From assembly GCA_036702865.1 (NCBI GenBank), contig DATNQD010000087.1:248001-312000 (forward strand): a stretch of 64,000 bases of DNA, written 5' to 3'. This document shows positions 54,971 to 63,442 of this stretch, piece after piece. Source of the DNA: Trichocoleus sp. (GTDB lineage Bacteria > Cyanobacteriota > Cyanobacteriia > Elainellales > Elainellaceae). The notes under the pieces were generated by a model, which was not told where the DNA came from, ran no database searches, and worked only from the letters and a program-made list of their open reading frames with translations. Position numbers and translations under genes: made by a program. Numbering within the stretch: position 1 is the first letter of the stretch; every line of letters begins with the position of its first letter.

Positions 54971-56695
54971 TTACCGCAGCGATCGTCTGGCAGCACTGCT
55001 AGCCCAATCTACTCCAAACGTAATCAGCACAAAGCATCCGAGCGTCACAACCACACGACTATAGTCGAAGCTGCTTAGCTGTTCTGTGAGTAAAAGCCCT
55101 AAGCCGCCTGCACCTACCAAACCTACAATCACAGTCTCTCTCGTACAAACCTCCCAGCGGTAGAGAACATAGGCAATAAAGCGAGTTAACGTCAGCGGCA
55201 AAATGCCGTACAAGAAAAGTGATGGTGCAGGTGTGCCTTGTGCTTTTAGGGCAGCTAGAGGACGCTGATCCAGGTTTTCATTAACTTCAGCCATTAAGCG
55301 ACCCAAGATGCCCAGGTTATGCAAGCCTAGAGCAATTGCCCCCGGCAGAATTCCCGGAAACACAATAAACAGGGATACCAATGCCCAGATTGGAGCAGGA
55401 ATTGCCCGAAAAACCAGCAGCACCAGACGTGTCAGCAGGAGCCAAGCCCAGGCAGAGAATCGATCGCCCCAGCCCGACTGCCTCGGCTTCAGCAAGCCTC
55501 CCGGTAGAAAGAAATTGTGAGCTGCCGGAAAGGACAGCAATATTCCGCCCAAGCCAGCCAGGACGATCGCCAGAATCGACATTGCTACAGTTTCGAGCGA
55601 AAGCATGAGCAGTTGAGAAATCTGACTCAGCTGAAAATTAGGCGGAAAGGTCGATCGGGTAATTTCACTCAAAAGTAGAAAGGTACGCGCTGACCAGAGT
55701 TTGCTGTAGTCGGCCCCGACGACCCAAAAACAGAAGGGAATCAGGACGATCGCACTGAGTCCGGCAAGGGTGAGGCTATGCTGCCAAAAAAATTGAAAAA
55801 ACGAGTTTGAAGATGGGGAAGTTGCGCGACTTGGATGCCGATTGGGATTTGTAGAGCGTTTGCGAAAGTTCAGGTCGAGCCGACTGGGGGAACCGAGCCG
55901 ATGCCGCAAGGAGGCACTGAGTAGATCAACGCAGCCGTTGAGAATCACCAGCGCATAAAACAGCGTCCAGAGCTGCTCATACTGCAACGATTGAAGACTG
56001 AGCATGATCTGATAACCCAGTCCACCTGCGCCAATGATGCCCAGCACTGCCGCCGATCGCAGCGAACATTCAAAGCGATAAAAGCTATAGGACAGTAGAT
56101 CCAAAAAAGCCTGGGGCAGCAAGCTGTAGAGCAAAGCCGTCAGAGGTGGTGTGCCGCTACTAAGCAGAGCATTGAGGGGCTGACGTGGCGTTTCATCTAG
56201 CAGTTCGGAGAAGACCTTGGCAACGATCGCACTGTAAGGCACAACGATCGCCACAATTCCTACCAGTGGATCAAGCCCGAACAGATTAACGAAAAACAGC
56301 CCCCAAATCATTTCATGAATCGATCGCGGCACTGCTAGAAGAGATCGAAGCGTCGATCGAATCCAAAAAAATTGCGTTTGCCGGGGAAAAACTGCTAACC
56401 ATCCCACTTCAGAAATCAGCACGCCGCCGATAAAGCCAAACAAAACACTTAAAAACGTGCCGCAAACTGCGAAAGCAAGCGTCGTTAACGAAGCATTCCA
56501 GGTAAGCTGCAAGAATTCTGCACTGAGGTTGGGCTGGACACTGGCTCGAAAAAATTGCCAGAATTGCGGCAGTCCCCCCAGATTAAAAATTTCTTGCCGA
56601 AAGATACCTGTTGAGTAGAGGGAGAGGACGATCGCGCCAAGCGTCACAATTGCCCAGATGTAGGGCGTTTTAGAAATGGAGAGAGGGCGAGACAT
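54971..56695 (-). CDS. phnE: PhnE-type ABC permease, two-domain fusion
   Basis: 574 residues, twice the usual PhnE length. Two related permease domains are fused (first about 10-270, second about 300-570), each with five to six membrane helices and the inner-membrane EAA-like loop: PLNALLSSGTPPLTALLYSLLP in the first and PLAALKAQGTPAPSLFLYGILP in the second. Both end with a RECS/RETVIVGLVGAGGLG-like helix. The fused form would make the whole channel from one chain. It is the last gene of a minus-strand operon, 14 bases after phnC. Confidence 0.9.
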   Translation of the reverse strand: MSRPLSISKTPYIWAIVTLGAIVLSLYSTGIFRQEIFNLGGLPQFWQFFRASVQPNLSAEFLQLTWNASLTTLAFAVCGTFLSVLFGFIGGVLISEVGWLAVFPRQTQFFWIRSTLRSLLAVPRSIHEMIWGLFFVNLFGLDPLVGIVAIVVPYSAIVAKVFSELLDETPRQPLNALLSSGTPPLTALLYSLLPQAFLDLLSYSFYRFECSLRSAAVLGIIGAGGLGYQIMLSLQSLQYEQLWTLFYALVILNGCVDLLSASLRHRLGSPSRLDLNFRKRSTNPNRHPSRATSPSSNSFFQFFWQHSLTLAGLSAIVLIPFCFWVVGADYSKLWSARTFLLLSEITRSTFPPNFQLSQISQLLMLSLETVAMSILAIVLAGLGGILLSFPAAHNFFLPGGLLKPRQSGWGDRFSAWAWLLLTRLVLLVFRAIPAPIWALVSLFIVFPGILPGAIALGLHNLGILGRLMAEVNENLDQRPLAALKAQGTPAPSLFLYGILPLTLTRFIAYVLYRWEVCTRETVIVGLVGAGGLGLLLTEQLSSFDYSRVVVTLGCFVLITFGVDWASSAARRSLR

Positions 56696-56709
56696 GGAAA
56701 AGGAGCGGA

Positions 56710-57459
56710 TTAGCGCTGGTAAATCTGGGTAATGAGGGAATCGGTGAGATCGGTGGAGGGGAGATCGAAAAGGATTTGTCCTGCCTTTAAGCCAATGATC
56801 CGATCGCAGTGACTTTTTGCCAGATCGATCGAGTGGAGGCTGACAACGAGAGTTTTGCCTTCAATTTGCGCCAAATTTCGCAAGATATCCATGATTTCGC
56901 GGCTCAACTCCGGGTCGAGGCTGGAGACAGGTTCATCTGCCAAAATTGCCATTGGGTCTTGCACCAGAACACGGGCAATGGCGACTCGCTGCTGCTGTCC
57001 CCCAGAAAGCTGATCGGTGCGATCGTAGAGTTTTTCGGGAATTCCAACCCGATGAAGGGCTTTCGCGGCAGTTTCGGCTTCCAGTGGGTGCATTAGGGAC
57101 AAAGCAGCTTTCCAGAATGACCAGTTCCCCAGATGCCCAGCGTTGACGTTGTGAATCACCGATAGACTGTTGACCAAATGAAACTGCTGGTAAATTGTGC
57201 CGATTTGTCGCTGCACCCGCCGCAGCTTTTTGGCAGAAAGCCGATTCAGACAATGCCCTAACGCCCAAACTTCACCCTGGCTCGGAAACAGCGTTCCATT
57301 CAGCAAACGCAGCAGCGTACTCTTGCCTGCCCCACTCGAACCTACTAACGCGACTCGCTCACCCGGATAAATTTGCAGGTTAATCTGGCTCAGGGCTGAA
57401 AACTGCCCGAATTGCTGCGAGACTTGCCGAAGTTCAAAAACAGGCAGTTCAGAAGACAT
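56710..57459 (-). CDS. phnC: PhnC-type ABC ATPase
   Basis: 249 residues with Walker [15 protein letters not shown], signature [15 protein letters not shown] and Walker [15 protein letters not shown]. It belongs to the PhnC/PtxA branch of oxyanion importers. It lies between the substrate-binding protein (102 bases upstream) and the fused permease. The substrate could be phosphonate, phosphite or another oxyanion such as selenate; the ATPase does not discriminate. Confidence 0.92.
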
Positions 57460-57511
57460 GGAATAGTCGGAAATAGAGGAAGGGCGATCTGGGGAAGGTG
57501 AGTTTTGTCTT

Positions 57512-57541
57512 GCCCCCTAAATCCCCCAATTTTGGAGACTT
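57512..57541. repeat. Degenerate CCCCCTAAATCCCCCAATTTT repeat
   Basis: A copy of a short C-rich palindromic repeat common in cyanobacterial genomes (CCCCCTAAATCCCCC core). The partner arm is degenerate here. It lies in the phnD-phnC spacer. Confidence 0.5.
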
Positions 57542-57561
57542 TGAAGTGAGGACAATCGAAC

Positions 57562-58482
57562 TTATTGAATCTTGCCGATCTGCTTACCAACAGCCTCAAT
57601 TTGCTGATAGTTCGAGTTTTGCGTTGGGATAAATTTGCCTGCGCCAAACAACTCCAAAATTTCCTTTTGCTCCGGCACTTTTGGGTCGAGCTTCAGCAGA
57701 GCAGCCTGGACTTTTTGAGCAAAATCACTGCCATACCGCTCTTTGACCTGAGGATTAAGCACCCAATGATAGTCGTAGTAAGCGGGAGTTCTCCAGATCA
57801 CTTCCACCTTGTTGAGGTCAACCTCCCCTGCCTCAACCCGCTTCTGCCAAACTTGTTCATTCAACACGCCGGCATCATAGGTTCCAGCTTCCACTAGCTT
57901 CAGAGTGGTATCGTGATTCTTTGAGAAACCAACCTGTCCTTTAAAGTCTTCTAGCTTCAAGCCTGCCTGCTCTAAAAAATACTGCGGCATCAGTCTTCCA
58001 GAGGTTGAGGTTTCGCTACCGAAAGTGAAGGTTCGTCCTTTCAGTTCCTGTAGCCCTTTCTCGTCGCTGATGGGCTTGAGTCCCGATTTCTTGTTAACAA
58101 TGAAAACGCTGTGGAAGTCTGCATCAATATCGCGCTGAGCGATCGCTTCTGCCCCCGGAACCTGCAACCGCGCCTGCACTCCGGTCAGTCCGCCAAACCA
58201 AACCAGATCCAGATCTCCCACTTTAAAGGCAGTCACGGCGGCTGTGTAGTCGGTGACAGGCTTATAGACAACAGGTACACCCACCTCTTTGCTGAGATAG
58301 TCTGCCAGCTTGCCATAAAGCCGCTGTAGCTTCTCCGGATCTTGATCTGGAATTGCCCCTGTCACTAAAGGCTTCACATTTTCTGTGGTTCCCGATGCTC
58401 CCTGGTTAGATGCGTTTGGCGTACTCGGTGCACAAGCAACCAACGGCAACAGTAACAAACCCGCCAATAGAATTCGTCTCAT
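57562..58482 (-). CDS. PhnD-type oxyanion-binding lipoprotein (putative selenate/phosphonate)
   Basis: 306 residues from ATG 58482. A lipoprotein signal (RRILLAGLLLLPLVAC) places it on the periplasmic face of the plasma membrane. The mature part begins VTGAIPDQDPEKLQRLYGKLADYL and contains WFGGLTGVQARLQVPGAEAIAQRD and GSETSTSGRLMPQYFLEQAG, a pattern I associate with the PhnD-related group annotated as putative selenate-binding proteins. Genuine phosphonate or phosphite binding is the alternative. No C-P lyase or phosphonatase gene is nearby. Operon order: PLP lyase, this protein, phnC, fused permease. Confidence 0.85.
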   Translation of the reverse strand: MRRILLAGLLLLPLVACAPSTPNASNQGASGTTENVKPLVTGAIPDQDPEKLQRLYGKLADYLSKEVGVPVVYKPVTDYTAAVTAFKVGDLDLVWFGGLTGVQARLQVPGAEAIAQRDIDADFHSVFIVNKKSGLKPISDEKGLQELKGRTFTFGSETSTSGRLMPQYFLEQAGLKLEDFKGQVGFSKNHDTTLKLVEAGTYDAGVLNEQVWQKRVEAGEVDLNKVEVIWRTPAYYDYHWVLNPQVKERYGSDFAQKVQAALLKLDPKVPEQKEILELFGAGKFIPTQNSNYQQIEAVGKQIGKIQ

Positions 58483-58581
58483 TCCCAAAACCACTTTTTT
58501 TTATTCAGTTAGAACCACCCGATCAATCATCATAAACGGGTTTAACCAGGAGATTTTTCTCATCGCGTTTTAGCAACGCCT

Positions 58582-61159: not shown

Positions 61160-61654
61160 ATGATGAACAAGCGACTTTCTCTATTCACAGCAAGCATCGC
61201 AGTGGCGATCGTCACTTCTCTCGCAAGTTGCAGCAGACCTCCTGAAACGCCTGCTGCTTCCACCACACAACAAACTACAACAACGGAGCAAACTACAACC
61301 GCTGACCAGGGATCTGTAGAAAAGAATAGCTTTCGAGTGGTGAAAGATGTCACTCCTCCTGCTCCTGCTGCTGACCCAATTGCAATGGTGGTTGCAGTCC
61401 GTAAAGCCCCAACAGAGCCGATCGGTGAACTGATTCGGGTCAACTATCCTGCACCAGATAAAGCCGTTGTCACAATTACCCGCAACGGACTTTCTGATGA
61501 CTCTGTGAAAGCAACCCGAACGCGCTATGAATTTTCTGCGGCTGATAGCTCTAGCGGCGACCAAAAACTCTGGCAGATGAGCCAGGTCACAGAACAGAAT
61601 AAGTGCCAATCGGGGCGAGGCCCGGAAGATTGGTCAGGAGATCTGTGCCAGTAA
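61160..61654 (+). CDS. Lipoprotein of unknown function
   Basis: 164 residues. Signal peptide ending in lipobox LASC (cleavage before Cys24). A Thr/Gln-rich linker (residues about 35-55) joins it to a compact domain of about 100 residues with VVAVRKAPTEPIGELIRVNYPAPDKAVVTITRNG and a C-terminal CQSGRGPEDWSGDLCQ containing two cysteines that may pair. The end resembles cyanobacterial small lipoproteins; the function is unknown. GAGGAG upstream supports the start. Confidence 0.8.
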   Translation: MMNKRLSLFTASIAVAIVTSLASCSRPPETPAASTTQQTTTTEQTTTADQGSVEKNSFRVVKDVTPPAPAADPIAMVVAVRKAPTEPIGELIRVNYPAPDKAVVTITRNGLSDDSVKATRTRYEFSAADSSSGDQKLWQMSQVTEQNKCQSGRGPEDWSGDLCQ

Positions 61655-61762: not shown

Positions 61763-63022
61763 CTAGCCTATCCCGTTACCTTGGACAATATGTTTCACCG
61801 TCGTGAGGGTTTCTAAACTAATTAACCCCCGGCGGTGTCCTTTTTGGTTAGACATTCCCAAGGCGATCGGGCTACCTCGTTTGGGAATGCGGTAGAAGCG
61901 GGGAGAAGCATTGATATAGGTGATGGCACTGTTGATGCCCAAAGCGAACTGGCGGCTTTCCTGATACGATTCAGTTGCCAAACAATCAGCATGTCCGCTG
62001 CTGAAGGCATTGATCCAGGCAATTGCCGTTTCCAGTCCATCGACCGCTTTGAAGGTAATGGTGTTGTCGAGAGATGCCTGCGACCACTCGGCGTCCTTCG
62101 CTTCGCTCTTAAAAATATCGGGGAATTCGGCGACTAATTCAGCATCGCCCCGCAGCTCAAATCCTTTTTCTTTCAAGCTGTTCCAGAGCATCATTAGTGA
62201 AGTAGTGCTGTGCTGGCGGTGAACCAACACTTTCTCGATCGCATTGACTGGATCAGGCTCACCCTGACGGCTATCAAGAATCATCCATCTCGCTACATCC
62301 AGGCTGCCTGAGGGCGACCAGTAGAGATAGCAGTTGCCCATCGCAGTTTTGAGAACGGGAGCAGTTGCCTGACGCATCACTTGCTGCACTAGGCTGGCTC
62401 TGCCATAAGGAATCACCAGGTTAACGTAGCGATCGAGCGTTACAAGTTCACGGGTCAGATCGCCTTGATCAGAAGGCAAGAGCTGGACAGCATCAACGGG
62501 TAAGCCTGCATCCTCCATTGCTAGACGAAGCGTATCAGCAAGAACCTGATTCGAGTGGCTGGCTTCTGTACCGCCCCGCAAGATCAAGCTGTTTCCAGTC
62601 CGAATACAAAGCCCAGCAGCAATGGCTCCCAGTTCTGGAAATGCCTCATAGACAAGGGCAATCACGCCTAGCGGCATCAGTTGATGATAGGTCTGGCATT
62701 GATCCACCTGAAAGGAAGGCACATTGAGAACCTGCTGAATCGGGTCAGAGAGTTCTGCCAGTCTTTGTAAAATATTCCCGATCGTTTGCAGGCGTTCTGG
62801 GGTGAGCTTGAGCCAATCTAAGACCAGTTCTGGAACAGCCATCTCCCGGCTCACTTCGAGATCGAGCGTATTGGCTTCGAGAATGTCATCCTGTCGCTCT
62901 CGGAGCGCTTCTGCCATAAGTTGGAGCGCCCGGCCTCGTTCGCTGCCGCGTGAAGCAGACAGAATCAGGGATGCTTGATAGGCTTGATGGGCAGTTGTGG
63001 TGAGATCAGGTGAAGCGTTCAA
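61763..63022 (-). CDS. proA: ProA-family glutamate-5-semialdehyde dehydrogenase, catalytic Cys absent
   Basis: 419 residues from TTG 63022, with AAGGA upstream. The fold is ProA-like throughout (for example MPLGVIALVYEAFPELGAIAAGLCIRTGNSLILRGGTEASHSN). In classical ProA the catalytic cysteine stands in a (V/A)CNAxETLLVH motif. Here the matching segment is PDPVNAIEKVLVH (V259), so that cysteine is replaced. Cys231 in GNCYLYW is a different conserved cysteine. ProA reduces gamma-glutamyl phosphate for proline synthesis; this copy may be altered or use another mechanism. Cyanobacteria often carry two ProA-like genes. It follows a small protein gene by 12 bases. Confidence 0.8.
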   Translation of the reverse strand: MNASPDLTTTAHQAYQASLILSASRGSERGRALQLMAEALRERQDDILEANTLDLEVSREMAVPELVLDWLKLTPERLQTIGNILQRLAELSDPIQQVLNVPSFQVDQCQTYHQLMPLGVIALVYEAFPELGAIAAGLCIRTGNSLILRGGTEASHSNQVLADTLRLAMEDAGLPVDAVQLLPSDQGDLTRELVTLDRYVNLVIPYGRASLVQQVMRQATAPVLKTAMGNCYLYWSPSGSLDVARWMILDSRQGEPDPVNAIEKVLVHRQHSTTSLMMLWNSLKEKGFELRGDAELVAEFPDIFKSEAKDAEWSQASLDNTITFKAVDGLETAIAWINAFSSGHADCLATESYQESRQFALGINSAITYINASPRFYRIPKRGSPIALGMSNQKGHRRGLISLETLTTVKHIVQGNGIG

Positions 63023-63034
63023 GGAAGTCCTTGC

Positions 63035-63442
63035 CTAACGTCTACAAGCAAGCCACAGCATTAAAACCAGCATCATTGACAGCACGAGGGCAGCAATAAC
63101 TCGGAATGTAACACTGGCACTCAACGGCGATTGCAGGGTGGTCAACAGCAGCAGAAAAACCAGCCCAAAGATGACAACCAGGGTAATCGGGAAATAGCTT
63201 CTTGCCAGGCTGGAATGAGCGACATGCCACTGATGCCCTGTCCACCGCCAAGCCCGTTTATAGGGATAAGTGGTCGAGAGCTGTTCAATCACATGACCAT
63301 TTTCTTGAACAACAAATATCTGCTGGCAGCGTGTGCAGCCAAATGCCTCAGTTAGGGCGATCGGAGTCAAAGATCCTCGCCGACGGCAGGGGCAAGGATA
63401 ATCAGTCGTTAAATCAATCTTGTGAACTTTTTGCGGTTGCAC
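63035..63442 (-). CDS. Small membrane protein with zinc-ribbon-like cysteines
   Basis: 135 residues from GTG 63442. Two cysteine pairs near the N-terminus (CPC at about 17-19 and CTRC at about 36-39) resemble a small zinc ribbon. Two membrane helices follow (FPITLVVIFGLVFLLLLTTL and VIAALVLSMMLVLMLWLA). I do not recognise the family. The stop is 12 bases from the proA start, which suggests one transcript. Confidence 0.7.
   Translation of the reverse strand: MQPQKVHKIDLTTDYPCPCRRRGSLTPIALTEAFGCTRCQQIFVVQENGHVIEQLSTTYPYKRAWRWTGHQWHVAHSSLARSYFPITLVVIFGLVFLLLLTTLQSPLSASVTFRVIAALVLSMMLVLMLWLACRR

Follow-up and report, generated by a model that had tools for sequence, protein, structure and literature searches.

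The 64,000-nucleotide stretch of a Trichocoleus sp. contig (DATNQD010000087.1) analyzed here, referred to as the window, contains a ProA-like gene without the catalytic cysteine, named here ProA2, whose product can probably be considered an ancestral operon-encoded ProA that was replaced by a ProA of the P5CS type and kept as a non-catalytic, membrane-associated sensing or scaffolding subunit. A second, Cys-less ProA copy is carried by most cyanobacteria outside the marine pico-lineage, and together with the gene of a hitherto undescribed partner protein it forms a conserved operon. A broader history is plausible but tentative: an isozyme from another lineage may have displaced the original enzyme, which, still in its ancestral operon, would have lost catalysis and served, tethered to the membrane, as a sensor or scaffold through most of cyanobacterial history, and the Gloeobacter-type pair would still contain an active ProA.

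The ProA2 Gene and Its Active Site

ProA2 is a single open frame of 419 aa with a TTG start (Table 1), and its residues 256–268 read P-D-P-V-N-A-I-E-K-V-L-V-H. The preliminary description of this DNA was right in stating that the catalytic Cys is replaced by Val259, which is aligned with Cys255 of the Thermotoga ProA; the motif string that it gave, PVNAIEKVLVH, omits the D of the true segment, PDPVNAIEKVLVH. Since the alignment with characterized ProA proteins has no gaps flanking the site, the Cys has not been displaced, and its presence at a shifted position is ruled out.

Table 1. Coordinates of the ProA2 operon features in the window and of members of a second partner family at other loci.
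Feature	Position	Strand	Basis
ProA2, Cys-less ProA-like gene	61763..63022	minus	open frame, ProA/P5CS homology, clade analysis
Val259 codon, at the site of the catalytic Cys (Thermotoga Cys255)	62246..62248	minus	aligned to 1O20 and 26 sequences of the Cys type
AAGGA, Shine-Dalgarno-like, 5 nt before the ProA2 TTG, within the 12-nt gap after the partner stop	63028..63032	minus	direct reading
Partner gene, 135 aa, GTG start	63035..63442	minus	adjacency across loci, model
Second partner family members	L264:4612-5154, L265:4627-5181, L266:4731-5225, L269:4742-5230		

Two family models disagree about this protein. It matches NF001221 over its full length with 326 bits, above the cut-off of 289, and stays below the cut-off of TIGR00407 (278 bits, cut-off 317). 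It is thus taken as a glutamate-5-semialdehyde dehydrogenase (EC 1.2.1.41) by the former and not by the latter, probably one origin of its widespread misnaming.

The missing cysteine is one of several changes. Fifty alignment columns are invariant across 26 ProA/P5CS sequences of the Cys type; the ProA2 clade retains 32 of them and has lost 14, the Cys included: R67W, R124F/L, R183G, R202Y, H228Y, K248H/Y, C255V/I, E310, T368P, D372R, G373, G379, E381A/F, and P394 (Thermotoga numbering). E381 is the equivalent of Glu383 of the E. coli enzyme, whose replacement by Ala lowers the normal activity 190- to 2,100-fold (PMC4271523), and R183 aligns with Drosophila R525, a residue that contacts the adenine of NADPH (PMC8963878). 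In human ALDH18A1 the Cys is the sole residue of the catalytic triad that is present (PMC10650815). Judging from its residues, ProA2 is presumably unable to reduce gamma-glutamyl phosphate. Gly119, Gly150, and Arg/Lys149 are mostly retained in the clade, and residual binding of NADP may be possible. Other positions have become invariant within the clade, namely Trp70, Arg208, and Arg378 in all 33 aligned rows and Tyr206 and Tyr232 in 32 of the 33; of these, R208, R378, Y206, and Y232 show apparent constraint around the old site.

The AF2 model of ProA2 (mean pLDDT 92.4, pTM 0.90) has the GPR/ALDH three-domain fold, with 1O20, 4GHK, and 8ZOK as the best Foldseek matches (TM 0.88–0.90). The earlier statement that the rest of the fold is intact therefore holds for the fold itself, but not for the active site, from which 13 further invariant residues are lost across the clade. 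The view that the gene is not decayed was confirmed: it is full-length, its product is 86% identical to the nearest relatives and confidently modeled, and dN is 0.086 against a dS of ~2.5, the latter being near saturation. ProA2 is under strong purifying selection. An ALDH fold, the disappearance of the catalytic residues, and purifying selection, features by which candidate pseudoenzymes of the ALDH superfamily are recognized, are all found in it.

ProA2 resembles ProA (TIGR00407; 1O20, 8ZOK) in its full-length homology, fold, and most scaffold invariants, and differs from it in the lost residues, the TIGR00407 score, and the operon in which it is encoded. With the GPR domain of P5CS (ALDH18A1) it shares the fold and the superfamily; unlike P5CS, with which the normal ProA of Trichocoleus groups, it has neither the kinase domain nor the Cys and belongs to a separate clade. 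The pseudoenzyme ALDH16A1, listed as located in the cell membrane, is likewise an ALDH-fold protein conserved without catalytic residues (PMC10650815). However, it is an animal protein of another ALDH family and has no zinc-ribbon operon partner, and the likeness is one of logic only.

Distribution of the ProA2 Clade

The cysteine of the CNAxE motif is missing in 151 of 151 distinct sequences of the ProA2 clade (143 with V, 4 with I, 3 with A, and 1 with G), whose signature is PDxVNAIEKVLI, and present in all 39 Cys-type ProA/P5CS sequences. As every clade member read is Cys-less, its absence from the Trichocoleus protein is no accident of sequencing or annotation; a sequencing error or a pseudogene is ruled out by this clade-wide pattern and the low dN/dS. 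A mobile gene was also considered and rejected, the plasmid and phage matches being ordinary ProAs with identity of at most 38%.

A close homologue of ProA2 is present in 97 of the 292 genomes of the phylum, nearly all of which also hold a second, normal ProA. Four further genomes (G028, G125, G212, and G280) contain a very divergent form, found by means of the ProA family model and its position adjoining the partner gene. In the thermophile-type Cys-less proteins (L262:5149-6357 and L270:4559-5767), also adjoining the partner, the catalytic Cys is replaced by Ala and Cys231 by Thr. Among the 292 genomes ProA2 is absent from family f2, with genomes of 1.6–3.7 Mb consistent with picocyanobacteria, which retains the normal ProA; it is also absent from every non-photosynthetic relative sampled. 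In the open-licence literature searched no description of the Cys-less type was found. Synechocystis is known to have two proA genes, sll0461 and sll0373, both treated as encoding enzymes of the glutamate-to-proline route (PMC12386471), and one of the two is probably of the Cys-less type.

The Operon Partner

The partner gene lies 12 bases upstream of ProA2 and encodes a protein with a zinc-ribbon-like motif, CPC...GCTRC (GCxRC), a W-rich beta region, and two predicted C-terminal membrane helices. Of 36 sampled loci, 30 have it next to ProA2; among 80 named loci the count is 79, and the remaining locus is cut by its contig. By genome, it was found in 95 of the 101 with ProA2, with no partner detectable in the other six, and in only 3 of the 191 without it: G121 and G274, both of family f30, and G076, where the match is weak. 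The adjacency is maintained even where ProA2 has diverged past its usual motif (L067 of G028 and L262 of G125). No Pfam or NCBIfam family, no sequence relative in the PDB, and no significant Foldseek match was found for the partner protein.

In family f30 the partner gene without ProA2 is located at L260:4983-5423 (G121) and at G274:C1:1822981-1823292, which suggests that it is able to persist alone. It is also worth noting that most of the genomes concerned contain a second, weaker and unnamed partner family of 160–184 aa with the motif CPxC...FC..C, located away from the ProA-like gene (Table 1).

Normal ProA, Proline Routes, and Origin of the Clade

A second, Cys-bearing ProA was sought in the Trichocoleus genome (G000, 5.9 Mb, 90 contigs) and found: the one other homologue, at C36:49120-50331, is a normal ProA of 433 aa that reads ACNTIETLLVH. 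A single glutamate kinase ProB scores above the cut-off, at C74. ProA2 and the normal ProA are only 32% identical and fall into separate clades, by which a recent duplication of the host's own ProA is ruled out. Of the two possibilities raised in the preliminary description, that of a neofunctionalized paralogue gained support in a stronger form, since the remodeled active site is shared by an entire, conserved clade of cyanobacterial proteins. The other, a partner of a second ProA, did not: the Cys-bearing ProA lies elsewhere, the genomic partner is the zinc-ribbon/TM protein, and in three near-complete genomes with ProA2 (G016, G317, and G088) no Cys-type ProA was detected, the reverse being the case in f2. 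ProB is present in all three of these genomes, and AgrE, an alternative proline route, in G016 and G317. In G088 neither AgrE nor the PF02423 cyclodeaminase was found, the latter being absent from all genomes tested, and the sequence flanking proA in G266, searched against G088, matched only dispersed repeats there.

In the trees the ProA2 clade forms a single group (100/99) from which all Cys-type proteins are separate, and the normal ProA of Trichocoleus is placed with plant P5CS and a haloarchaeal ProA. The Cys-bearing branch nearest to the ProA2 clade is L064 from G037, a deep-branching, Gloeobacter-type genome that we take to be that of Gloeobacter violaceus PCC 7421. Its single ProA is Cys-bearing and canonical at all 14 sites lost in the ProA2 clade, and its gene immediately follows that of the same partner (7e-46 with the partner profile). 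This arrangement, seen in one genome, is apparently the ancestral state. Because the partner already stands beside an active ProA in G037, the second function is suggested to be older than the loss of catalysis.

The simplest history would begin with an ancestral operon of the zinc-ribbon membrane protein gene and an active ProA, the latter giving rise to the cyanobacterial ProA2. A different, P5CS-type ProA would have taken over and would now make proline in most cyanobacteria; the operon copy would have lost the nucleophile together with most side chains that serve substrate and cofactor, and nevertheless been retained. Alternatively, both ProA types may be ancestral and Gloeobacter may have lost the P5CS type, in which case the functional conclusion would be unchanged.

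Possible Functions of ProA2

Without the nucleophile and most of these side chains, ProA2 would be unable to carry out the ProA thioester/hydride reaction. The product would be a non-catalytic GPR-fold protein, which the partner protein probably recruits to the membrane; its most likely role there would be that of a ligand-sensing or scaffolding subunit. We infer the inactivity of ProA2, its binding to the partner, and its regulatory or scaffolding role.

The main rival to such a subunit, although an unlikely one, is a new enzyme, in which the remodeled pocket would catalyze a different, Cys-independent reaction, e.g., via the invariant Arg208, Arg378, Glu263, Lys264, and Asn371 around the old site. 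The residues around the old site, the new invariants included, are among the most conserved of the clade, and the pocket has not drifted freely, unlike what a plain scaffold might show. Against this, several pocket residues, e.g., Cys231, are lost in the divergent thermophile-type L262 and L270 and in the Thermostichales-type L067, and the last of these lacks the entire NAxEK motif, yet the partner is kept. Moreover, we know of no GPR or ALDH reaction that proceeds without the Cys. That ProA2 still works as a ProA by means of another nucleophile is very improbable. Cys231, the candidate, is invariant in the 33-row alignment, and three genomes holding ProB have no other detectable ProA, but the same cysteine is equally conserved in normal ProAs and is therefore no replacement nucleophile, besides being Thr in L262 and L270; the substrate-binding Glu381 and several Arg/Lys residues are lost as well, and a normal ProA usually accompanies ProA2 in the genome.

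ProA2 could also regulate proline synthesis as a dead subunit that mixes with the normal ProA or ProB and tunes them. Regulatory pseudo-subunits of active paralogues are known elsewhere, e.g., the trypanosome AdoMetDC prozyme (PMC6221367), and both Synechocystis proA transcripts are elevated under nitrogen starvation (PMC12386471). This role is nonetheless improbable, given that ProA2 is unlinked to proA or proB, has low identity to the normal ProA, and persists without it in the three genomes named above, just as the normal ProA persists without ProA2 in f2 and others.

With the Cys-bearing form in a deep lineage and the Cys-less form elsewhere, in the same operon, the family offers a rare ordered series for the study of how an enzyme turns into a pseudoenzyme. 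Outside the pico-lineage, ProA2 and its partner represent an uncharacterized two-gene unit that is near-universal in cyanobacteria, and the ProA2 gene is present in hundreds of cyanobacterial genomes. Because NF001221 accepts its product as a glutamate-5-semialdehyde dehydrogenase, metabolic models and engineering may count as a proline enzyme a protein that is probably nothing of the kind.

Neighboring Open Reading Frames

Between a desaturase gene and ProA2 a small lipoprotein-like ORF is located on the plus strand (61160-61654), for which no Pfam or NCBIfam family was found. Further away, at 54971-58494 on the minus strand, three adjacent ORFs resemble by eye an ABC transporter of the phosphonate/phosphate type, comprising a double permease, an ATPase, and a binding protein.
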